A DNA stretch of 64,000 bases, from NCBI GenBank assembly GCA_021405325.1, contig QWII01000015.1, positions 62,001 to 126,000 on the forward strand. The letters are read 5' to 3'. Position 1 is the first letter of the stretch; each line of letters begins with the position of its first letter. A program made the position numbers and the translations under genes. The notes below the pieces were generated by a model. That model saw only the letters and a list, made by a program, of their open reading frames with translations, made no database searches and had not been told where the DNA came from. The DNA comes from Caldilinea sp. CFX5 (GTDB lineage: Bacteria > Chloroflexota > Anaerolineae > Caldilineales > Caldilineaceae). This document shows, piece by piece, positions 9,997 through 49,700 of the stretch.

Positions 9997-10968
9997 ATGA
10001 GTCCGAAACCAAAAGTTAACGTCATTGTCCCCATTGAAGCCGATCTGCAAGCGCAGGTCGAGGCCGTGGCGGATGTCCGCTATATTGACTGGACGGTCGC
10101 CCGCGCCGACCTATTAGCCGCCATGCGTGACGTTGAAGGCGTATTGTTGACCCCCAGAGTGCGGGGCGACGCCGAATTTTTTGACGCGTCGCCAAAGTTA
10201 CGCGTCCTCTCCACTACCAGCGTCGGCTACGATGCCTTTGACATTGGCGAAGCGACCAAACATGGTGTGGTCGTCTGCCATACGCCGGGCGTGCTGACCA
10301 ATGCCGTCGCCAACTTAACCGTCGCCTTGATCCTCAACCTGGCGCTCAAACTGCGGGAAAACGAAGCCTATGTGCGTGACGGCAACTGGGCCGCGAATGC
10401 CACCCGTCCCGGCCTGGGCATCGACATTCAGGGTAAGACCCTGGGCGTCGTCGGCTTTGGGCGCATCGGCCAGACGGTCACCCGCTTTGTGCAGGCGCTC
10501 GGCATGAAGACCATCTGGTACGACATCTTCGACACGCCCCACCCCAGCGCCCCCAAGAGCGAATATCGCCCATTTGACGCGCTGCTGGCTGAGTCCGACT
10601 TTGTCACCCTCCATACCAACCTGGACGCCAACTCGCGCCACCTGATCGGCGCCGCCGAGTTGGCGAAAATGAAGCGGACGGCCTTCCTGATCAACACGGC
10701 GCGTGGCGGGCTGGTCGATCAGGTCGCACTCACCGAAGCGCTGCGCAATGGCGTGATCGCCGGCGCCGGTCTCGACGTGTTGGAAAGCGAACCGCCGGCG
10801 GCCGACGATCCGATCTACAAATTGCCCAACGTCGTCTGCTACCCCCACATCGGCTCGGCCACCCACGAAACCCGCCGCGCCATGCGCGAACTGGCCGTGC
10901 AAAATCTGGTGGCCGTGTTGACTGGTCAACGCCCGCCGGCGCCGGTTAATCCGGAAGTGCTGAAGTGA
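9997..10968 (+). CDS. D-isomer specific 2-hydroxyacid dehydrogenase (glyoxylate/hydroxypyruvate reductase-like)
   Basis: A 323-residue NAD(P)-dependent enzyme that reduces 2-oxoacids such as glyoxylate or hydroxypyruvate. The nucleotide-binding motif VVGFGRIGQTV lies at about 151-161, the substrate-binding Arg236 in LINTARGGLVD, and the catalytic His284 in CYPHIGSATHE. VGYDAFD near residue 77 is typical of the GRHPR branch. The start ATG at 9997 has AGAAAG ten bases upstream. The stop codon (10966-10968) lies inside the first arm of the hairpin at 10965-11017. The exact substrate is uncertain; a glyoxylate link with the glycolate oxidase genes at 57.8-62.6 kb is possible. Confidence 0.9.
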   Translation: MSPKPKVNVIVPIEADLQAQVEAVADVRYIDWTVARADLLAAMRDVEGVLLTPRVRGDAEFFDASPKLRVLSTTSVGYDAFDIGEATKHGVVVCHTPGVLTNAVANLTVALILNLALKLRENEAYVRDGNWAANATRPGLGIDIQGKTLGVVGFGRIGQTVTRFVQALGMKTIWYDIFDTPHPSAPKSEYRPFDALLAESDFVTLHTNLDANSRHLIGAAELAKMKRTAFLINTARGGLVDQVALTEALRNGVIAGAGLDVLESEPPAADDPIYKLPNVVCYPHIGSATHETRRAMRELAVQNLVAVLTGQRPPAPVNPEVLK

Positions 10969-11017
10969 TTCGTGATTCGTGGCCTGAGCCTGTCGAAGGC
11001 CACGAATCACGAATCAC
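10965..11017. repeat. Empty GTGATTC-heptamer hairpin, 20-bp perfect arms
   Basis: Arms 10965-10984 (two GTGATTC units then GTGGCC) and 10998-11017, with a 13-base loop. The first arm contains the TGA stop of the upstream gene, and the second ends ten bases from the iolE stop. The arm sequence matches the repeats flanking the four-helix-bundle gene at 42709-43179. Confidence 0.9.
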
Positions 11018-11954: not shown

Positions 11955-12983
11955 TTAGTCGAGACCGCCGCGTTCATTGACAAACGTCATCACCTCGTCC
12001 AATGTCGGCATGAAGTTGGCGCAGCCATGAGCCATGACGACGATGGCGCCACAGGCATTGCCCAGCCGGGCGGCGCGGCGCAAGTCCCAGCCGTTGACAT
12101 AGCCATAGATAAAACCGGCGCCAAAGGCGTCACCGGCGCCGAGAATGTTGTAGACTTTTACCGGATAGCCGGGCGCTTCGATGGGTTCTTCCTGACCGGC
12201 CAGATGAATGCGCGAACCGAGCGCGCCCACCTTTTCCACCACCACTTTCGGCCCCAGCGTCAAGAGCGTGCGGATAGCGGCGTAGGTGTCGCCCTTCACC
12301 TTGGTATCTGAGACCTGGGAGTGGGTGAGGGACATCTGGCTGGTGTCTTTGAGCATGGCGGCGTTGATCTCGTCATTGGTGCCAATGACAATGTCCACCG
12401 AATGTAAAACCGACCGCACGACGACCCCAAAGGCGCGTGGGTCATGCCACTGGTCGGGGCGGAAATCAACATCAAAGATCACTTGGGTGCCGACCTGCTT
12501 GGCTAACTCGGCGCCGAACATGGTAGCGCTGCGGCTCGGTTCTTTGCTCAGGTTGGTGCCGGCAAATTGGAAGACTTTGCTGTCGGCAATCGGTGCGGCC
12601 AACACATCGTCAATACTCAACTGAATATCGGCGCAGTTGTCGCGATAGTAGACCAGCGGGAACTTGTTCGGCGGCTCAATGCCCAATACCACCGCGCTGG
12701 TACGATAACCAGGCTTGCGTGGGCTAAATTTGGTCTCGACCCCTTCCTTGTTCAGAAAGTTCAAGATAAAGTCACCAACCGGATCGACGCCCAGCCCGGT
12801 AATTAGAGCCGTTTTCAACCCCAGCCGCCGCCCGCCGACGCTAATGTTAGTGGGCGAACCGCCGACATAGGCGGCAAAGCTGGTAATGTCAACAAAGGGC
12901 GAGCCGACATCGTTGCTGTAGAGGTCAATCGATGAACGGCCCATGTGGAGCGAGTCATAGGTGTGTGTGGAATTATTGCTCAT
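11955..12983 (-). CDS. iolC: 5-dehydro-2-deoxygluconokinase (IolC)
   Basis: PfkB/ribokinase-family kinase of 342 residues that phosphorylates 5-dehydro-2-deoxygluconate. The N-terminal motif SSIDLYSNDVGSPFVDITSF and GGSPTNISVGGRRLG are typical of IolC. The PfkB anion hole and catalytic Asp are in NILGAGDAFGAGFIYG near residue 290. The start overlaps the end of the four-helix-bundle gene by four bases (ATGA), so translation may be coupled to that inserted gene. That cassette separates iolC from iolB. Confidence 0.93.
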   Translation of the reverse strand: MSNNSTHTYDSLHMGRSSIDLYSNDVGSPFVDITSFAAYVGGSPTNISVGGRRLGLKTALITGLGVDPVGDFILNFLNKEGVETKFSPRKPGYRTSAVVLGIEPPNKFPLVYYRDNCADIQLSIDDVLAAPIADSKVFQFAGTNLSKEPSRSATMFGAELAKQVGTQVIFDVDFRPDQWHDPRAFGVVVRSVLHSVDIVIGTNDEINAAMLKDTSQMSLTHSQVSDTKVKGDTYAAIRTLLTLGPKVVVEKVGALGSRIHLAGQEEPIEAPGYPVKVYNILGAGDAFGAGFIYGYVNGWDLRRAARLGNACGAIVVMAHGCANFMPTLDEVMTFVNERGGLD

Positions 12984-13498
12984 TGGTCAGTCTCCGTGTT
13001 GCGTATTGCGTGTTGCGTGTACTGGTTTTCGGGGATTGGAATGTCTGTTAGTAAGTCCGATATGATGGTGGTGTCATAGGATGCTTTCTCTTCGGCGATA
13101 GAAGAGCCACGTGCTTTGGGTACTATGCGCAGGAGATTGCGGATGATTTGTGCTGATAGTTTTAAGCGATGCTGGGTGACTTCAGGGCCAAGGACATGAC
13201 GGGATTTGAAATACCAATCGCGCGTTTCGCGTGCTGAACCGAGTGCGTATTCATAAAAGCGAGCCTGATCCTTTCCAGATGCGCGGCTATACCCTTCACA
13301 GGTATTAGCACTGATACTACCTGCGGCTCGGTAGAGTTGATCTGATAAAGACCGTGTTGGCGGCTTTAGCGATAACTTCATGGCATCATGCCACGCCAGA
13401 TCACCAAGAAAAAGCCCAAGTCGATAAACCTCCATCTTCCAAAGAGGATCATCCTTGATCTCTGTCGGCACATTCGCCAACCATTCCTGATAATTCAT
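12980..13498 (-). CDS. Four-helix-bundle (IVP/S23-type) protein inside the iol operon
   Basis: A 172-residue relative of the four-helix-bundle proteins first known from 23S rRNA intervening sequences and of the Avd accessory proteins of diversity-generating retroelements. The family core is visible: QLYRAAGSISANTCEGY, then the basic [19 protein letters not shown] and a late helix RLKLSAQIIRNLLRI. It is clearly related to the protein at 42709-43179. The last residues (TQHAIRNTETDQ) are read from tandem heptamers at 12995-13020, so the element's repeat forms part of the coding end. The stop overlaps the iolC start. No reverse transcriptase or rRNA is nearby. Likely a nucleic-acid-binding passenger gene; its role is unknown. 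Confidence 0.85.
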   Translation of the reverse strand: MNYQEWLANVPTEIKDDPLWKMEVYRLGLFLGDLAWHDAMKLSLKPPTRSLSDQLYRAAGSISANTCEGYSRASGKDQARFYEYALGSARETRDWYFKSRHVLGPEVTQHRLKLSAQIIRNLLRIVPKARGSSIAEEKASYDTTIISDLLTDIPIPENQYTQHAIRNTETDQ

Positions 13499-13563
13499 GC
13501 CAACTACTTTCTAACGGTTCACGCAACGTTCGGCTGAGCTCACGTCGAAGCCACGCAACACGC
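12995..13563 (-). mobile_element. Candidate IVP cassette bounded by GTGTTGC heptamers
   Basis: On one side lies the tandem array GTGTTGC-GTATTGC-GTGTTGC-GTG (12996-13019). On the other lies its complement CACGCAACACGC (13552-13563, 12 bp perfect with 13008-13019). The four-helix-bundle gene lies between them. The whole lies between iolB (stop at 13569) and iolC (start at 12983). Mobility is inferred from position and from the second cassette at 42649-43213; no target-site duplication was identified. Confidence 0.55.
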
Positions 13564-19193: not shown

Positions 19194-22100
19194 ATGCCCA
19201 GATTCCGCAACCCACAAGCCGTCCAACGGCGTGACCTGTCCAAGTTATACACGCTGCTTGCCCTGATCGCTGGTTTTATTATCTTCCTGATTGCGCGCGG
19301 CTGCCAAAATATGCGCGCCGATTTGACCGGTAGCGCCACTCCTGTCCCCACCTATACCTTTGATCTCGCCATTGTGCGCCCGGTCATGATCGCACCGGCC
19401 AGCTCTGCGATCACGGTGATTACCGACACCCTTACCATTGCCGGCGCCGGTTCGCCCAATTCACGCCTGCAACTGTTGCAGAACAGTGCGCCGATTGCCA
19501 CCCTCACCGTCGATCCGGCGGGGCAGTGGCAGACAACGGTGAGCATTACGGAAGATGGCGATTACACCTTTGTCGCACAGGCGTTAGATGCCAACAACGC
19601 CGTGTTGAGTGAAGCGCAACCGCTCACCCTGGTGATTGCCGTCCCCACGGCCACCCCGACCCCAATCCCAACCGCCACCCCGATTCCAACGGCAACCTTT
19701 ACGCCCACCCCCGTTCCCACCCGACCGCCGCTTTCGGTGGAATCGCTGGTCTTTGATCTGGCGGAACAACCGAGCCTGGTGCGGATGACGGGCGCCGGGG
19801 CGCCGGGGGTGGTGGCCCAACTGTTGGCCAACGCAACGATCATCAACACCACCACCGTTGGGCTGGATGGTTCCTGGTCATTGATCACGCCACTGGAAAA
19901 CCCCACTGAATATGACATCGGTCTGACGGCCTTGCTCACCGACGGGCAAGCGGTCGCGGTGACTGTACCCATGAACGCGCTGGTGCTCGCCTTGCCTACC
20001 GCCACCGAAACCGCCACGGTCGCACCGACGGCCACACCGACACCGGTCGCGACGCCAACCATCCCGGCGCCCAGCGTCGGTGACTTTAGCTTTACCCGCG
20101 GTGTGACTACCACCACCGTCACCCTCACCGGCAGTGGTCAACCGGAGAGCCAATTGCAGGTGCTGGTAGCCGATACGCTGGTCGCTACCACGACCATCAA
20201 CGCCCAGGGCGTCTGGACCGTGACCGCACCATTGGGCGGCCCCGGCGGGTACGGCCTCACCGTGCAAGCGTTGGCGGCTGATGGCGCCGTTGTCGCCAGT
20301 GCGCCGTTGCAGTTGATCGTCGCCCCGCCCGCAGCAACCGACACCCCCACGCCCGCACCGGTTGTCACCGCCACACCGACGCGCCTGCCGCCCGCTTTTG
20401 AAATTTCAAAGAGCGCCTTACAGGTAGGTGAGGCGCTGCAACTGCGCGGGCGCGGCCTGCCTGGCGAACTGATCGAAGTGATTGTCGGCGGCAACGTGAT
20501 CGGCAGTACAACGGTGCAACCCGACGGCTCCTTCACTTTTAACCTGAATTTTACTTCGCCTGGTGTGCAGTATATCGGCATCCGTGCCGTTAACGCAGCC
20601 GGTGAACCGCTTGTCGGGCGCACCTTTGCCTACATTGTCGTCAACCCGGCGCCTACGGCCACCCCCACCGTTACCGCGACGCCATTGCCCACCGCCACTG
20701 AAACCGCAACGGAGACGGCCACTGCCGTCGCTACGGAAACGGCTACGGTCGCCCCAACCGCTACCGAAACTGTCACAGCGACGGCTGCGCCGACCACTAC
20801 TGCGACTGTGACGGCAGCGCCGGTGGTGACCGCGGCCACACCCGGTATCACCGCAACAGCCCCACTGACGGCGGCACTAGCGCCCACGGCCACCATCGTT
20901 TCGACGGTGACGACGGGCGCGGCAACGGTCGCACCGGCGACAGCCACCGTGACGGCAACAACAACCGTTACCGTGGTGGAAATGAATGCGGCGGCAGCAA
21001 CCCTGACCGTCACAACGCCCAGTGCGACTGCCGCTGCAACCACCGTCGCCACGGCAACGGCGACCGCCACGCCATTGCCGACCGCTACTACGACCCCCGC
21101 GCCGACGGATACCGCAACGGCGACAGCTACCGATACACCGGCGCCGACGGATACGGCCACACCATTGCCAACGGACACAGCAACGGCGGCGCCAACCAAC
21201 ACAGCCACTGATACGCCTGCGCCGACCGATACAGCAACACCTGTGCCAACCGATACAGCCACGGACACACCAGCGCCGACTGATACAGCAACACCTGTAC
21301 CAACCGATACAGCGACCGCTACCAATACGCCGGCGCCAACTGCCACGGCGACCGCTACGGATACACCGGCGCCAACGGCTACGCCAACCGCCACCGCAAC
21401 CGATACGGCCACGCCACGCCCAACGGCGACCGCAACAGCCTCCGCCACCCCGACCCCTGTGCCAACGGCAACCGCAACGGCCACAGCCACGCGTGTGCGG
21501 CCAACCTTTACGCTTTCTGCCACCACGTTGCAAGTGAGCCAACTCCTCACGGTGACCGGGCAAGGCGCACCGGGCGAGACGATTGAGTTGATTGTCGGCA
21601 ATACCGTCTTGGAACGCACACAGGCCGCTGCCGACGGGGCTTTTGCGTTTGATCTGGCCTTTGCTTCGCCAGGAGTGCAATTTTTGACCGTGCGTGCTGT
21701 GGATGCCGCCGGGAATGCGCTGCTTGGCAACAGCGTCGCCTATATCATCGTCAACCCGGAACCGACGCCGACCTCAACCGCTGTGCCACCCCAGGCTGAT
21801 ATTGACCGCTTGCGCAATGGTCTGGTCGTGCGTGCGGAAACGCAACTTACGGGGCGAGGCGAACCAGGCGCAACGGTGCGCCTTTTGCTGGGCGATCAGG
21901 TGATCAGCGAAGGCAAGGTTGCGGCTGACGGGCGGTGGGTTTTGCCCCTTTCCGTCAGCCGCGCCGGTCAATATGCGTTGAGTGTGCAACTGGTCGATAG
22001 CGCCGGCGTCGTCATTGCCACTGCGACGCCGCTGGCCTTTACCGTTTTGGCGCCGACGCCCACTGCCACCGATCCACCGACGGCGACTGCCACCGCAACA

Positions 22101-24521
22101 ACCACGCCCACGCCAAGACCAACTGCCACCGCTACGGCAACGCCAACCGCCATCCCGACACCGACCAATACCCCAACCGCAACCCCAACCTATACACCGA
22201 CCAGTACGCCGACCCATACGCCGATTGCACCGACCTGTACCTTCTCCGCCGTACAGCTTACCATGGGGGATCCCCTGACCATTACGGGGCGCGGGGAGCC
22301 TAACACCCAGGCGCAACTCATCATCGGCGGTGAACCTTACGCAACCATGCCCATCGATCAGGCCGGTACATTCAGCACAACGCTCCGTTTTGCCGGGGGC
22401 GGCATACAATACATTGGTTGTCAGGGCGTTGATGCGGCCGGGAATGTGATCGCCAGTCAAAGCGCCGCTTATGAGACCGCTACCCCCACCCCAACCGCTA
22501 CCCCACAGCCAACGGCCACCGCCACGCCTACAGTGACGCCTACAGTGACGCCTACCTTCACCAATACGGCCACGCCGCGCCCAACAGCGACCGCCACCAT
22601 AACCCCCACCCCAACCAATACTGCGACGGCCACGTCTACGGCAACGCCAACGCCGCTCCCGCCCACTTGTCTGGTTGAGGAGCCGCAACAGATGGTCGGC
22701 GAACCGGTGGTGATTACCGGCAGCGGCGCGCCCAATACGGCTGTGGAGGTCATTGCCGGCGAACAGCTTCTTACCACGACAACTGTGGCGGCGAGCGGGC
22801 GCTTTAGCTACACGGTTACCTTTGTCACGCCGGGGATTCAATATATTGCATGCCGCGCCGTTGGCCAGACCCAACCGGTGCGTCTGATTTCCTATATTTT
22901 TGTGCGTCCCCAACCGACCAGTACGCCGACCGTCACGCCCAGCCCCACTCCCGTGCCAACGGCCACCGCGACCATGACGCCGACCGCAACACCGACCCCT
23001 ATTCCCACGGCCACGCCGACGCCGACGGCTACCCCAACACTGACACCCACCGCGACGGCAACGCATACCGCCACGCCGCTGCCGACCAATACAGCGACGG
23101 CGACCGCCACCGCTACCGCCACCGCTACCGCAACGCCGATTCCAACGCCAACGGCGACCGCCACCGCTACCGCCACGGCGACCGCCACCGTAACCCCGGT
23201 TCCGACACCGACGGCCACACCAACCCCGCCGCCGACGCCAACCGCCACCGCCACGGCGACCCCGATCCCAACGCCGACGGTCACCAATACGCCGGTCGTG
23301 CCGCAATGCTCTCTGGCCACAGCCCAACTTACCGTTGGTGATCCGTTGCTTGTCATCGGCCACGGTGAACCGGCGAGCGCAGTACAAATTCTGGTAGGCG
23401 GCCAGGTGTTGGATACCGTTGCCGCCGACGCCACCGGTAACTTTACGGCGACTGTGCAATTTGCCGGCGCCGGCGTGCAATATATTGCCTGTCAACGCGC
23501 CGATGGACAGGCGCGCGCGCCAATGGGCAACCTTGCCGGTTATGTCATCGTGTTGGCGCCGACAGCCACACCGACGGCGACGGCTACCCCAACGCCATTG
23601 CCCACGGCCACCCCCACGGCAACGGCGACCCCCACCAGCACCAATACGCCGATCCCGACCGACACGCCGACCCCCAGACCGACGGCGATGCCAACCGCAA
23701 CCGAGACCCCGACCCCTAGTCCAACGGCCACGCCGGAACCGACCAATACGCCAACGGCTACCAATAGCGCCACAGCGGAGCCAACGGCCACCCCCACCGT
23801 AACCAACACGGCCACCGCAGAACCGACCAATACGCCGGCCGTTACCAATACGCCGCGCCCAACCAACAGCCCGACGGCTACGCACACGCCGGCGCCAACT
23901 GATACGCCGACTGCCACCAACACGGCAACCGCCGCACCAACCAATACACCAACCAATACAGCAGAACCAACCAACACGTCGACTGTCACAAAGACGGCCA
24001 CCGTAGAACCAACCGCCACCGCGACCGAAACGGCGACGCCGGCGCCGACCGCCACTGCAACGCCACTGCCAACGGCGACCAATACCGCTACCGTCCAACC
24101 GACCAATACGCCGACGGCCACCAATTCGCCGGCGCCAACCGCGACAGAGCCGCCAACTGTCGTCCCAACCGCCACGGCCATGCCGACAGCAGCCGCCACT
24201 GCTACGGCTACCCAAGCCGCACCGTCAACGAGCGCGATCACCATGACAATGCCACTTACGGGTGCAGCTCCAGTCACAGCTACGATTGGTATCACTGGTG
24301 TTGATCGGCTTACAGCCACGGCGACCCTGACTGAGAGCGCCATGCTGACCGCTACAGCCGAACGAACACCGGCGGTGCGACCAGGCCAACTGCCCCATAC
24401 CGGCCAAGCCTTTGGCGCGCTGGATAGCCGCAGCCTCAGCGTTTTGTTGCTGCTCTTCCTGCTCATCGTCAGCGCCGGGCTATGGGATCGCCGCCGTTTG
24501 GGCAAATGGGGAAGTAGCTGA
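19194..24521 (+). CDS. Giant Thr/Pro-rich surface protein with nine Ig-like modules and LPHTG anchor
   Basis: A 1775-residue exported protein. A membrane helix lies at about 22-40 (LLALIAGFIIFLIARGC). Nine Ig-like modules of about 80 residues follow, each with a VTGxGxPG-type turn and a DGxF/W strand. They begin near residues 80, 180, 290, 400, 770, 860, 1020, 1160 and 1370, and are joined by stretches of TxTxTP repeats; the longest linkers lie at about 485-765 and 1460-1720. Modules 4, 5 and 7-9 share SPGVQYIG-like ends, and modules 7-9 contain paired Cys. The C-terminus carries LPHTG, a hydrophobic helix (LSVLLLLFLLIVSAGLW) and RRR, a classic sortase signal. Probably a stalk-like adhesin or wall protein, with the linkers possibly glycosylated. 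No sortase is in the window. Confidence 0.8.
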   Translation: MPRFRNPQAVQRRDLSKLYTLLALIAGFIIFLIARGCQNMRADLTGSATPVPTYTFDLAIVRPVMIAPASSAITVITDTLTIAGAGSPNSRLQLLQNSAPIATLTVDPAGQWQTTVSITEDGDYTFVAQALDANNAVLSEAQPLTLVIAVPTATPTPIPTATPIPTATFTPTPVPTRPPLSVESLVFDLAEQPSLVRMTGAGAPGVVAQLLANATIINTTTVGLDGSWSLITPLENPTEYDIGLTALLTDGQAVAVTVPMNALVLALPTATETATVAPTATPTPVATPTIPAPSVGDFSFTRGVTTTTVTLTGSGQPESQLQVLVADTLVATTTINAQGVWTVTAPLGGPGGYGLTVQALAADGAVVASAPLQLIVAPPAATDTPTPAPVVTATPTRLPPAFEISKSALQVGEALQLRGRGLPGELIEVIVGGNVIGSTTVQPDGSFTFNLNFTSPGVQYIGIRAVNAAGEPLVGRTFAYIVVNPAPTATPTVTATPLPTATETATETATAVATETATVAPTATETVTATAAPTTTATVTAAPVVTAATPGITATAPLTAALAPTATIVSTVTTGAATVAPATATVTATTTVTVVEMNAAAATLTVTTPSATAAATTVATATATATPLPTATTTPAPTDTATATATDTPAPTDTATPLPTDTATAAPTNTATDTPAPTDTATPVPTDTATDTPAPTDTATPVPTDTATATNTPAPTATATATDTPAPTATPTATATDTATPRPTATATASATPTPVPTATATATATRVRPTFTLSATTLQVSQLLTVTGQGAPGETIELIVGNTVLERTQAAADGAFAFDLAFASPGVQFLTVRAVDAAGNALLGNSVAYIIVNPEPTPTSTAVPPQADIDRLRNGLVVRAETQLTGRGEPGATVRLLLGDQVISEGKVAADGRWVLPLSVSRAGQYALSVQLVDSAGVVIATATPLAFTVLAPTPTATDPPTATATATTTPTPRPTATATATPTAIPTPTNTPTATPTYTPTSTPTHTPIAPTCTFSAVQLTMGDPLTITGRGEPNTQAQLIIGGEPYATMPIDQAGTFSTTLRFAGGGIQYIGCQGVDAAGNVIASQSAAYETATPTPTATPQPTATATPTVTPTVTPTFTNTATPRPTATATITPTPTNTATATSTATPTPLPPTCLVEEPQQMVGEPVVITGSGAPNTAVEVIAGEQLLTTTTVAASGRFSYTVTFVTPGIQYIACRAVGQTQPVRLISYIFVRPQPTSTPTVTPSPTPVPTATATMTPTATPTPIPTATPTPTATPTLTPTATATHTATPLPTNTATATATATATATATPIPTPTATATATATATATVTPVPTPTATPTPPPTPTATATATPIPTPTVTNTPVVPQCSLATAQLTVGDPLLVIGHGEPASAVQILVGGQVLDTVAADATGNFTATVQFAGAGVQYIACQRADGQARAPMGNLAGYVIVLAPTATPTATATPTPLPTATPTATATPTSTNTPIPTDTPTPRPTAMPTATETPTPSPTATPEPTNTPTATNSATAEPTATPTVTNTATAEPTNTPAVTNTPRPTNSPTATHTPAPTDTPTATNTATAAPTNTPTNTAEPTNTSTVTKTATVEPTATATETATPAPTATATPLPTATNTATVQPTNTPTATNSPAPTATEPPTVVPTATAMPTAAATATATQAAPSTSAITMTMPLTGAAPVTATIGITGVDRLTATATLTESAMLTATAERTPAVRPGQLPHTGQAFGALDSRSLSVLLLLFLLIVSAGLWDRRRLGKWGSS

Positions 24522-41083: not shown

Positions 41084-42634
41084 TTACGGCTTTACATTCC
41101 GCCAATACCTTCCATCCCGCGCCAGTAAGCGATCCGCCTCTGGCGGCCCCCAGGTGCCGGCGGGGTATTGGGGCAGACGCAGCCGGCGACCAGCTTGCCG
41201 CGCCGCCGCATCCTCCGCTTCCCAGCCGGCCAGGATGTTGGTGACCCGATCCCACGCTACCTCGATCTCGTCGCGGCGGATAAAGAGGGTACTATCACCC
41301 AGCAGCGCGTCGAGCAGGAGCCGTTCGTAGGCGTCGGCGGGCTTTTGGCCGAAGCTGGCGCTGTAGGTAAAGCTCATCTGCACCGGATCGACCTCGACCA
41401 GGGGGCCGGGGCGCTTGGCGTCAAAGCTGAGGACAATGCTCTCATCGGGCTGGATGCGCATGGTGAGGACATTGCTGGGCAGGTGAAACTGGTCGTAAAT
41501 CTTCTCAAAGAGCAGCAGCGGCGGCTTGCGGAAAACAATGTTGATCTCGCTCAACTTGGCCGGCATCGCCTTGCCGGTGCGCAGGTAAAAGGGCACCCCT
41601 TTCCAGCGCCAGTTGTCGATCTCCAGCTTCCACGCCACGTAGGTATCGGTGGTCGAATTGGGCGCAATTCCTTTGCTCCCCAGATAGCCCTGCATGGCCG
41701 CACCGTTGACCAACCCCGCTTCATACTGGGCGCGCACCACATCTTCGCGCACGGCGCTGGGGTCGAGGCGGCGAATCGAGTGCATCACATTGACCTTCTG
41801 GTCGCGCACCGCTTTGGCGTCAAAGGCGACCGGCGGTTCCATCGCCGTCAACGCCACGAGTTGCATAACATGATTCTGCACCATATCGCGAATCGCACCC
41901 GACTCGTCGTAGTAGCCGCCCCGGTCGCCGACACCCAGGCTCTCGGCCACGGTGATCTGGACATGGTCAATATAGTTGCGATTCCAGATTGGCTCAAAAA
42001 TGCCGTTGCCAAAGCGGAAGACCAGAATGTTCTGCACCGTCTCCTTGCCCAGGTAGTGGTCGATGCGATAGATCTGGTCTTCGTGGAAGCGGCGCAGGAG
42101 ATGTTCGTTGAGGGCTTGGGCGCTTTGCAAGTCGCGGCCAAAGGGCTTTTCGATGATCAGCCGTGTCCAGCCGCTGGTCTGCCCATTATTCTGCCGACCG
42201 GCCAGCCCGATCTCCTGTAACAGCGCCGTGATCGGTTCAAAAACATCCGGTGGCGTCGCCAGGTAGAAGAGGATGTTGGGCGTGTTGCGTTCCCGTTGTA
42301 GCGTGCGGATGCGTTCAGCCAGGGCGGCAAAGGCGGCAGCGTCATCATACTGACCGCTCTGGTAGAAAAGATTCTGCGCAAAGTCCGCCCACTGGGTTTC
42401 ATCCACCCCGCCGGCCCCATGCTCGGTGGTCATATGGTCGCGCAACCCTGTTGCGGCCAGCTCGCGAAATTGCTCATCGCTGTAGGCGGTGCGTGCATAG
42501 CCCAACAAGGTAAAGCCGGCCGGTAATAACTTCTGCGCCGCCAGGTGATAGACGGCAGGAATCAACTTCCGTTTTGCCAGATCGCCCGACGCGCCAAAGA
42601 CGACAATCAGGACCGGCTCGGTCATTCGTTTCAT
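41084..42634 (-). CDS. zwf: Glucose-6-phosphate 1-dehydrogenase
   Basis: A 516-residue NADP enzyme opening the oxidative pentose phosphate route. The nucleotide motif [19 protein letters not shown], the active-site [13 protein letters not shown] and [13 protein letters not shown] are all present. The length is usual. Followed closely by the CadD-like gene and preceded by a four-helix-bundle cassette that separates it from the ABC transporter genes. Confidence 0.97.
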
Positions 42635-42648
42635 GGGAATCCTTGCTA

Positions 42649-43213
42649 CGTGATTCGTGATTCGTGATTCGTGATGCGTGATGCGTGATGCGTGATGCGT
42701 GTCACTAATTATGGAATGGCGTTAAAAAGCTCTAAGGGAATTGTACTGTAAGTAACCTTCTCTTCTTGAATTTTGCTATCGCGTTGATCAGGAATGACCG
42801 TGAGCAGTAAACGAATGACTTGTGTACAGAAGTCTAACCGATGATTCGTTACTGTGCTGCCAAGGATGTGTCGTCCTTTGTGATACCAATCGCGACTTTC
42901 GCGCGCAGAACCAAGCGCATACTCGTAAAAGCGTACTCGATCCCGCCCAGAGCTACGCCTATAACCTTCGGCAATATTGGCACTGATTGAACCAACCGCA
43001 CGATAAAGTTGATTTGATAAATCAAGTGTACGCGGATCTTTGTACAGCTTTGTTACATCATGCCAGGCAATGTCGCCAAGAAAAAGCGCCAGCCGATAAG
43101 CCTCCATCTTCCACAGTAAATCGCCTTTAATAAAAGATGACACATCCTGCTCCCACTCCGCGTAACTCTGATAACTCATCCATCTCCCCCAATTCCACGA
43201 ATCACGAATCACG
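42649..43213 (-). mobile_element. Candidate IVP cassette bounded by GTGATTC heptamers
   Basis: One side is a tandem array of three GTGATTC and four GTGATGC units (42650-42698). The other holds two inverted GAATCAC units (43199-43212). The arms 42649-42666 and 43196-43213 are 18-bp exact complements, enclosing one four-helix-bundle gene. The second arm supplies the stop codon of the ABC ATPase (43202-43204). The array ends 14 bases before the zwf start. Same architecture as 12995-13563. Confidence 0.6.
42709..43179 (-). CDS. Four-helix-bundle (IVP/S23-type) protein, second copy
   Basis: A 156-residue protein of the 23S rRNA intervening-sequence protein kind: [38 protein letters not shown], then [19 protein letters not shown] and a final helix [11 protein letters not shown]. 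It is closely similar to the product of 12980-13498 over most of its length. The start [11 protein letters not shown] (43179) aligns with that copy; the open frame extends upstream across the ABC gene but is not coding there. Family members form basic pentameric barrels that bind nucleic acid; a role here in stabilising or moving the hairpin is inference. Confidence 0.87.
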
Positions 43214-44410
43214 TCGATACGCCATGACCGGCCCTTTGACCCGCAGTTGGACGGCTTGACCGGTTTGAAATTGTTGGAAGGCGTCGGCGCGGACGCGGAG
43301 GCGGAGACCGTTGTCGAATTGGACGGTGACCAGTTGATCGTGACCAAAGAAGAGAACCTGCTGCACCTGACAATTGGTCGGCGTGGCGGCGGGTTCGGCG
43401 TGGATATTTTCGGGGCGCAAGAGGACATCGACCGCGCCCTGGTTTTCGTTGAGCGTTGCCAGCCGACCAAGCGCACATTCGGCCACCTTGCCTGTCGCCT
43501 GACCGGGCAAAAAGTTGACATCGCCCAGAAACTCGGCCACCTGGCGATTGGCCGGCTGGATGTAAAGTTGTTGGGGGGCAGCCTGCTGCTGGACAACGCC
43601 GTTGATCAGCACCGCCACCTGATCGACCAGACTGAGCGCCTCTTCCTGGTCATGGGTGACAAAGATGGCAGTGGCGTTGGCTTCACGCAAAATAGCGCGC
43701 ACCTCGGCGCGCACGCGCACCCGCAACCCGGCGTCGAGATTGCTAAAGGGTTCATCCAGCAACACCACATCCGGCTCCGGCGCTAAGGCGCGCGCCAGCG
43801 CTACCCGCTGCTGTTGGCCGCCGCTCAACTCGTTGGGCATCCGCTTTTCCAGCCCAGCCAAACCGACCAGATCCAGCACCGCCGCCACGCGCTTTGGCTT
43901 GTCGCCGCCGTAATGGTGCAGCCCAAAAGCCACATTCTGCGCCACGGTCAAATGGGGAAAGAGAGCGTACTCCTGAAAAACCATCCCCACTCGGCGCTTT
44001 TCCGGCGGCAGATGGACATGCGGGTGACAGGCGACACACTGGCCGTTGATCTTGACCTCACCGGAGTCCACCTGTTCAAAGCCGGCAATGAGGCGCAGTG
44101 TGGTTGTCTTGCCACAGCCGCTGGGGCCAAGCAGCGCCATCAACTGGCCGCGTTGGAGATGGAAGGAAACGCCGTTGGCCGCGCCCACCTCGCCGTAACG
44201 CTTGCGAACTTGGTGTAGACGAATGCCGGCCTCTTCCGCGATGATCTCTTCCGTTTCCATCAATTCGATGTTGGGCTGCGGTGCAACAGCGGGCGCGTTG
44301 CGAAACAGGGCCGGTTGGTTGACCGCCGCTTTGCCGACAGGGGCCGCTAATTGATTTGCGCTGCTTTGCCAGAGCGCACCAAAGGGTAGACGGGTAGCTT
44401 TCCAACTCAC
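43202..44410 (-). CDS. ABC transporter ATP-binding protein (FbpC/PotA-like)
   Basis: A 402-residue ATPase: Walker A GPSGCGKTTTLR, Q-loop in VFQEYALFP, signature LSGGQQQRVALARA, Walker B VVLLDEPF, switch His in IFVTHDQEEAL, and a C-terminal TOBE region. Powers iron(III)-type or related uptake with the permease upstream. The frame starts at GTG (GTGA overlap with the permease stop); about 50 extra N-terminal residues precede the conserved part, so an inner start near 44260 is possible. The last residues and stop are read from the cassette arm. No substrate-binding protein gene is in the window. Confidence 0.9.
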   Translation of the reverse strand: MSWKATRLPFGALWQSSANQLAAPVGKAAVNQPALFRNAPAVAPQPNIELMETEEIIAEEAGIRLHQVRKRYGEVGAANGVSFHLQRGQLMALLGPSGCGKTTTLRLIAGFEQVDSGEVKINGQCVACHPHVHLPPEKRRVGMVFQEYALFPHLTVAQNVAFGLHHYGGDKPKRVAAVLDLVGLAGLEKRMPNELSGGQQQRVALARALAPEPDVVLLDEPFSNLDAGLRVRVRAEVRAILREANATAIFVTHDQEEALSLVDQVAVLINGVVQQQAAPQQLYIQPANRQVAEFLGDVNFLPGQATGKVAECALGRLATLNENQGAVDVLLRPENIHAEPAATPTNCQVQQVLFFGHDQLVTVQFDNGLRLRVRADAFQQFQTGQAVQLRVKGPVMAYRRDS

Positions 44411-48614: not shown

Positions 48615-49700
48615 CTAGCGTGACGCGACCGACAACCCCTGCAATCTGGTCTGGAAGTCCGGCAGCACAATGACTTCCAGTGCCAGATCAACTAATTGGT
48701 ATAAAACATCTTCGTCGCTGATCTGCGTCAGTTGCTGCGCCAGCCCTTGTAGGCTCTCCTCTGATGCTTGGAACCGACGTTGCAAGATACGGAGGATCGT
48801 AGTGCGTTGACTTTCTTGTCGTCCTTCTTGCCGTCCAAATCGTTTGCCCTCTTCGATCCACTCTTCAGCCATCGTTTGCATAAGCGATCCTCCCTCTTTG
48901 GGTAACAACGCTAACAACTTCTGCGCCATTTCTTCTTTTTTCACTTGAACCCCAGCACGACCCAGGTAACGTAGTAGCGCCACAACCATCGCAATGCCGT
49001 TTGATTGACGCAACACCTCGGCAGCCATTGACAGGATTTCATCTAGCTGTCCACCCAAGCCCTGTTCAAAGATATGTTTTAATACCAACACAAAAAGCCG
49101 GGTGACGACCTCGCCCTGAATTTCTTCATCTGGTAGTGCGCTGAGATTGACCAAATGCGGCTCAAAGTCGGGAACATAAGGCGCTAATGCCTTCGCCAAT
49201 GGGGATTCGGGGTCTTGCATGCCAGTCAGATGACGGGCAAAGCGCAGCGAGACATGCCACTCCTCCTTGCCATGATAGACCAGCAAGACCAGAATCGGCG
49301 TAAGGGTCTGGACACGCGCCAGGCGACCTGGTTTGGCTTGCGCCTGCTTGGCTGCCTTGTGCGCCGCCTGAATTTCGGCAAACTCCTGTTCCCACATCCG
49401 CATTTCGTAGCGTAAGACCTGGAAGTCAACCCACTCGTCAGGGTAACTCTTGTGCTCAAAGAGCAAGGAGAAGGCCACCGGCGTTTCCTCGGTGGTCACC
49501 GTGCGGTAGACCAGATCGCTAAAGTGGTTACGTAACTGCTCATCGACAAAAGAGTCTTTGGCGAGTTCCAGCCGCGTCAAGTCCACTAAAGCAACCACCG
49601 TCGCCGGCAGATGGTTGCGCAAAAAATCAGCCGCTGCTACCGGGTGACTGAGGTATTGTTTGAAAAAGAGATCATGCGGATTGATCGGTTCGGTTGTCAT
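48615..49700 (-). CDS. Rpn family nuclease/putative transposase
   Basis: A 361-residue YhgA/Rpn-type protein: INPHDLFFKQYLSHPVAAAD, FSDLVYRTVT and SLLFEHKSYPDEWVDFQVL holding the Asp, Glu and Lys of the nuclease core. The C-terminus is helical with an EWIEEGKRFGRQEGRQE linker, but lacks the duplicated unit seen at 35-36 kb. Single gene. Confidence 0.85.
   Translation of the reverse strand: MTTEPINPHDLFFKQYLSHPVAAADFLRNHLPATVVALVDLTRLELAKDSFVDEQLRNHFSDLVYRTVTTEETPVAFSLLFEHKSYPDEWVDFQVLRYEMRMWEQEFAEIQAAHKAAKQAQAKPGRLARVQTLTPILVLLVYHGKEEWHVSLRFARHLTGMQDPESPLAKALAPYVPDFEPHLVNLSALPDEEIQGEVVTRLFVLVLKHIFEQGLGGQLDEILSMAAEVLRQSNGIAMVVALLRYLGRAGVQVKKEEMAQKLLALLPKEGGSLMQTMAEEWIEEGKRFGRQEGRQESQRTTILRILQRRFQASEESLQGLAQQLTQISDEDVLYQLVDLALEVIVLPDFQTRLQGLSVASR

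Follow-up and report, generated by a model that had tools for sequence, protein, structure and literature searches.

The S23/IVP gene that lies between an ABC transporter ATPase gene and zwf in the Caldilinea sp. CFX5 DNA analysed here (64,000 nt, hereafter the window) probably belongs to a widespread family of intergenic cassettes that act as selfish or addictive hairpin elements. In such a cassette, two inverted arrays built from 7- or 8-nt units would enclose an S23/IVP gene in the loop between them, the whole being packed from the stop codon of one gene to the start codon of the next and usually following the direction of the upstream gene. Judged by sequence comparison, IVP genes were shown to be associated with paired arms far beyond control ORFs. 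The observation made on the window cassette was confirmed as correct and general, and recurrence of the arrangement in several bacterial phyla suggests that a type of gene cassette gained and lost between genes has been overlooked. The interpretation offered by an earlier first-pass annotation of the same DNA was partly supported.

The cassette and its neighbours occupy the following positions in the window:

42709..43179, minus strand: S23/IVP four-helix-bundle gene, 156 aa, by PF05635 and TIGR02436 profile matches
43196..43214, minus strand: 5′ arm, GTGATTC heptamers on the coding strand, by inverted-repeat search
42648..42701, minus strand: 3′ arm, a tandem array that reads as three GAATCAC and four GCATCAC heptamers on the coding strand
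43202..44410, minus strand: upstream neighbour, ABC transporter ATPase (ABC_tran, TOBE_2), by profile scan
41084..42634, minus strand: downstream neighbour, zwf, glucose-6-phosphate dehydrogenase, by profile scan

The ABC ATPase gene, the IVP gene and zwf share one common direction. Assignment of the 156-residue product to the IVP/S23 family, made in the first-pass annotation, was borne out by PF05635 (E 5.3e-15, 56 bits against a curated cut-off of 33.8) and TIGR02436 (E 1.8e-17, 63.5 bits against a curated cut-off of 24). The arms are exactly inverted, as had been claimed, but measure 19 nt (42648-42666 and 43196-43214) and not 18. All heptamers described before were located on the + strand, namely three GTGATTC units at 42650, 42657 and 42664, four GTGATGC units at 42671, 42678, 42685 and 42692, and two GAATCAC units at 43199 and 43206 on the opposite side. 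As the ABC ATPase ORF ends at 43202, within the 5′ arm, this arm supplies the stop codon of the gene, and the downstream heptamer array begins 14 nt from the zwf start codon; both points had been read correctly in the earlier annotation. Allowing up to two mismatches, CGTGATKCGTGATKC has 11 matches in the window against 0.70 expected, a number reached by none of 100 shuffles. The IVP gene has a GC content of 45%, compared with 57% for the window. In the predicted RNA fold of the cassette a 20-bp terminal stem is present, and the folding energy is mildly unusual (z -1.78), 4 of 100 shuffles being equally good. Rfam gave no gathering-level match within the window. A search of 400 Chloroflexota genomes gave no close relative with which the zwf-ABC junction could be compared, the best identity of zwf among the matches listed being 58%. 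About 5.4 kb from the cassette lies a Transposase_31 (YhgA-like) gene (48615-49700, minus strand, Pfam 5e-47).

The window holds a second IVP gene and a heptamer hairpin devoid of a gene, both absent from the first-pass annotation:

12980..13498, minus strand: second S23/IVP gene, PF05635 51.8 bits
12995..13020, minus strand: 3′ array of this second element, with heptamers GTGTTGC, GTATTGC and GTGTTGC on the + strand
13552..13563, minus strand: 5′ arm of this element, exactly complementary to 13008-13019
10965..11017, no strand: gene-less heptamer hairpin, 21-nt exact arms (10965-10985 and 10997-11017) with an 11-nt loop

The second gene shares its strand with both neighbours, a KduI/IolB gene and a PfkB gene. 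At its 3′ end it extends across the heptamer array and overlaps the pfkB ORF (11955-12983) by 4 nt. With 12 nt (13008-13019 and 13552-13563), its exact inverse arms are weaker than those of the first cassette. The gene-less hairpin stands between convergent genes, and its left arm contains the stop codon of a dehydrogenase gene (9997-10968). Elsewhere in the window, long tandem repeats are clustered at 21153-24074, where ACC/GCC-type codons are abundant.

The generality of the arrangement rests on three sets of IVP loci. Set A comprises the best 80 of 238 loci obtained with the window protein against genome contigs, set B 90 loci matching PF05635 in 24 genomes that were reached via IVP loci and carry 1 to 22 copies each, and set C 30 loci from Bacteroidia. 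Sets B and C are the better matches of each search, sets A and B have at least three places in common, and the initial IVP profile failed to hit 5 of the 90 set-B loci. IVP genes less than 150 nt from a contig end, uncalled ORFs and genes without a profile hit were left out of scoring; scored were 56 IVP genes in set A, 78 in set B and 29 in set C. Inverted arms, defined by an ungapped score of at least 12 within 150 nt of the gene, flank 111 of the 163 scored IVP genes and 16 of 690 control ORFs when the sets are pooled. The corresponding values are 45/56 against 13/641 in set A, 52/78 against 3/46 in set B and 14/29 against 0/3 in set C, the controls of which are too few to stand alone. An initial count of exact 12-mers in 150-nt flanks gave inverted repeats at 46 of 72 IVP genes, compared with 6 of 613 control ORFs drawn from these loci. 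Neither window IVP gene scored positive in the automated flank test (inverted-repeat scores 9 and 7), the first because its start codon was called too far upstream and the second because its array lies inside the ORF end; the positives counted are outside the window.

The spacing of the arm units is equally distinctive. A period of 7 or 8 nt (score at least 12) was found in the flanks of 74 of 163 IVP genes and 66 of 690 controls, that is 34/56 against 58/641 in set A, 29/78 against 8/46 in set B, a modest excess (p = 0.025), and 11/29 against 0/3 in set C. The remaining periods from 4 to 12 reached the same score at only 2 of the 163 IVP genes and 4 of the 690 controls. Among 192 IVP genes, a few places being counted twice, 114 had a clear period in the range from 5 to 11, which was 7 in 93 cases, 8 in 21 and no other value in any. 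On inspection, most of the best set-A loci carry degenerate heptamer arrays, whose units include CGTGATG, CGTAATG, CGTATTG, AGTAGAA and AGTGGAA. At a few set-A loci, mainly from Bacteroidota and Gemmatimonadota, the period is longer or none is clear. The expectation that the heptamers of the window would flank other IVP genes thus holds for inverted 7/8-nt arrays and fails for the letters GTGATTC; only period and grammar are conserved.

Mapped on a tree of 110 IVP proteins, the period changes 11 times, compared with a shuffled mean of 17.8, and none of 500 shuffles was as low, near-copies contributing to this result. Protein similarity predicts the 6-mer similarity of arms at unrelated sites (r = 0.27 over 152 genes, at most 0.05 in 500 permutations), and closely related IVPs at unrelated sites have similar units in just 16.6% of cases. 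Such limited sharing makes strict sequence recognition doubtful and, taken with the correlation, indicates that the arms belong to the gene while their letters turn over fast. The match between the two arms of a locus is better than that obtained after swapping arms among loci whose flanks are related, with means of 14.3 and 11.6, respectively, for 206 non-independent pairs. For 42 disjoint pairs the means were 14.4 and 12.5, with 25 pairs for and 13 against (p = 0.011), and the advantage stems mainly from the more diverged pairs. Across the loci compared, the period was shown to be constant at 7 or 8 while the unit letters vary, and both arms of one cassette were shown to tend to change together.

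Heptamer arrays also occur apart from IVP genes. In 400 kb of genome G002, tandem arrays were found at period 7 (23), period 8 (7) and the 14-nt harmonic (15), with 4 arrays at the remaining periods from 4 to 15 and none in one shuffled copy. All 4 IVP genes of this stretch lie at most 4 nt from an array, and 25 of 30 arrays stand without an adjacent IVP gene. Heptamers that are largely intergenic have been described before, TAACTGA in the excerpt of PMC4679880, GGGAATC of Xanthomonas and GGGGA(C/T)T of Nostoc in that of PMC4692102, and GATAGRA of Chloroflexus is given in part of PMC6749651. We found the TAACTGA array in 5 of 295 Bacteroidia genomes. At 9 inspected sites, drawn from the 29 listed out of 40 matches, no IVP gene lies within 1.5 kb, and among the array-bearing genomes one (G726) lacks IVP genes altogether. 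Enrichment of IVP genes in TAACTGA genomes was considered and dropped, 4 of 5 carrying one compared with 33 of 40 comparison genomes. That all heptamer arrays are IVP arms is ruled out by the lone G002 arrays and the TAACTGA sites.

These lone arrays fit a reading in which the arrays are an independent intergenic satellite of 7/8-nt hairpins that arise through slippage or the formation of palindromes, with IVP genes settling there because such sites are tolerant. The published heptamers are compatible with it as well, S23 being unmentioned in the searched text of PMC4679880 and PMC4692102. We nevertheless regard a pure satellite as unlikely. It accounts poorly for mutually matching arms around the gene (111/163 against 16/690 control ORFs), for a period that follows the IVP protein tree and for the position of all four G002 genes beside an array. 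Furthermore, 20 Chloroflexota genomes free of IVP genes, drawn from 30 such genomes and sampled at 20 kb each (400 kb), yielded no array of period 7/8, compared with 10 arrays in 6 of 10 PF05635-bearing Chloroflexota genomes sampled at 40 kb each (400 kb), a contrast that is confounded by lineage. Arrays of other periods numbered 6 in the IVP-free and 3 in the IVP-bearing samples. E. coli K-12 had no 7/8-nt array in 50 kb.

The placement of the window cassette is typical of IVP elements. Of 160 IVP genes, 144 share the direction of the upstream gene (465 of 665 controls), and 112 of 158 share that of the downstream gene (413 of 668 controls). Of 103 elements with an arm score of at least 12, 92 have a codirectional ORF of 120 aa ending within 250 nt upstream; in 65 of these 92, by a count without control, the left arm starts at most 15 nt from the upstream stop codon, the median distance being 4 nt. 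The upstream arm is also polar, with G exceeding C in 90 of the 103 elements and C exceeding G in 7. Polarity of the arm and an orientation that follows the upstream gene would be compatible with cassettes that are non-autonomous retroelements copied via RNA, the IVP protein serving as a reverse transcriptase accessory like Avd. Homology of PF05635 and Avd of diversity-generating retroelements is described in the excerpt of PMC10053308, and one IVP protein of the junction discussed below (G026) weakly matches the bAvd model with 22.5 bits, below the 40-bit cut-off. No reverse transcriptase was present among the 8 window proteins scanned, and we hold the retroelement origin to be improbable.

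Codirectional placement between stop and start codons and the 20-bp terminal stem in the predicted RNA might instead reflect a regulatory or RNA-processing device, in which pairing of the arms within the operon transcript keeps the expression of the two neighbours apart, without any mobility. The fate of individual junctions in related genomes bears on this. Judged by comparison, whole cassettes were shown to occupy a junction in some species and to be missing from it in others. In the Adhaeribacter genome G019, an IVP cassette with octamer arms lies between two MacB/FtsX permease genes. The same junction is empty in G029, whose flanks are 89-90% identical to those of G019, and filled in G027 by a cassette with an IVP protein 71% identical to that of G019. 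In G026 the cassette has heptamer arms and encodes a different IVP type (31% over 72 aa). Yet another type occurs in G028 (38% over 64 aa when compared with the G026 protein), where the polarity of the arms is reversed. Together, the five genomes present one empty site and three unlike IVP types. A separate dispersed repeat (L164:1-130) occurs on both strands in dozens of copies in G019 and G029.

Two junctions of a Chloroflexota family, taken only where both flanks were listed on one contig, behave similarly. A cassette is present in 7 of 28 genomes at the junction of two epimerase/dehydratase genes and in 8 of 24 at the rpiB-transaldolase junction. Unfilled junctions are short in 19 of 21 and 10 of 16 cases, respectively, and the rest hold other inserts. 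By eye, gene-less 7/8-nt arrays or hairpins were recognised at the short unfilled junctions of L220, L230, L246, L247 and L255. Three loci without IVP at the epimerase junction (L213, L218 and L221) carry a different repeat of the ...GTCATTGCGAGG... type. Simple vertical inheritance was set aside for both junctions, as IVP identity tracks flank identity loosely (correlations of 0.48 over 7 loci and 0.12 over 8 loci); with these 7 and 8 loci, the loose correlation hints at exchange. In G190, again by eye, the right arm has no stop in the frame of the next gene and would provide it with a new N-terminus, which looks like intrusion and not like a tuned device. A junction that is filled or empty among related species and a single site occupied by several unlike IVP types likewise speak against a device of this kind, and we consider it rather improbable, even though close cassette copies, as such a device would have it, share their flanks.

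The first-pass annotation had also suggested a mobile element. Empty and filled sites at conserved junctions support this part of the suggestion; recent jumping is not supported. Among the 40 closest of 74 IVP pairs (at least 74% DNA identity; 3 of the 40 being one place fetched twice), only 3 lacked flank homology, and the best of these reached 79% identity. As nearly all close copies share their flanks, recent transposition was not seen. Compared with what is expected of MITEs or insertion sequences, empty sites do exist in relatives (G029 and the two Chloroflexota junctions), but arm units vary by locus, no fixed terminal inverted repeat is common to the copies, and the 40 closest pairs offered no near-identical copies at unrelated sites. 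No target-site duplication was recognised in the one empty site inspected, that of G029. Carriage by phages or plasmids was rejected, as searches with the window protein found no match among phage records and just 2 among 72,556 plasmid records. Inverted arms accompany one of the two plasmid loci (L262), and none are visible at the other (L261). At the former, on a Picosynechococcus plasmid (L262:1393-1749), the IVP gene is flanked by cas10 and cmr3 within a type III-B CRISPR operon, and its inverted arms are, by eye, of the GGAGATTA type.

A selfish or addictive cassette of the kind we favour could be tolerated by the host, its arms pairing in the transcript and isolating the insert. By analogy with RNase III acting on S23-bearing 23S inserts, the paired arms may let the host process the insert out. 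In sequence searches the window IVP protein matches 2gsc and, weakly (E 0.01), 2rld, each of which contains five chains per entry. To our knowledge, no nuclease function has been assigned to S23 proteins. In the excerpt of PMC4990558 these proteins, familiar from rRNA inserts, are said to have no known function, and the X. campestris S23 protein is described as a homopentamer. A ring of five, as in a solved relative, might bind single-stranded repeat units in step, and such binding might maintain or spread the arrays. Gene-less 7/8-nt arrays and hairpins would then be deletion products or dependents of cassettes.

Taken further, S23/IVP proteins could be repeat-reading pentamers by which inverted arrays with 7- or 8-nt units are made, maintained and spread between genes, and could define a new class of bacterial mobile elements. 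The 23S rRNA IVSs would be a branch that settled in rRNA, and the intergenic heptamer repeats known from Chloroflexota, Bacteroidota and Cyanobacteria would be arms and scars of the same elements. We offer this wider scheme tentatively, with somewhat less than even confidence. Its appeal is that S23 proteins and intergenic heptamer repeats, for which the excerpt of PMC4679880 sees no evident mechanism of spread, would be tied together in a common, testable explanation. A five-subunit ring beside a rigid 7-/8-nt step suggests a new mode of repeat reading. In titles and abstract beginnings of open-licence articles, we found no joint report of S23/IVP genes outside rRNA and inverted 7/8-nt arrays.

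REP/RAYT systems and MITEs are palindromic intergenic repeats tied to one protein family, and gene-less copies of them exist. Unlike these, the cassettes have no fixed terminal sequence, and no target duplication was recognised. The closest parallel is the 23S rRNA IVS, as the first-pass annotation had rightly recognised; the 23S rRNA IVP is also named in a legend of PMC10910872. According to the excerpt of PMC4990558, the IVS of Coxiella burnetii, termed a selfish element, contains an S23 ORF inside a stem cut by RNase III; its terminal stem measures 28 bp, and tandem heptamers (GACAGAT) directly precede the S23 ORF. The window cassette likewise has an S23 ORF in the loop of a long inverted-repeat stem, with exact arms of 19 nt. 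In contrast to the IVS, it lies outside rRNA, between zwf and the ABC ATPase gene, both cassette arms are heptamer or octamer arrays with locus-specific units, and excision, which RNase III cleavage provides for in Coxiella, is here inferred. Avd belongs to a four-helix-bundle family related to IVP (PMC10053308, in part), whereas no retroelement parts were present among the 8 window proteins scanned. Finally, the cassette arrays resemble the heptamer repeats described in the excerpts of PMC4679880, PMC4692102 and PMC6749651 in being built from tandem 7-nt units, but differ from them in that, for roughly two thirds of the scored IVP genes, they serve as cassette arms.
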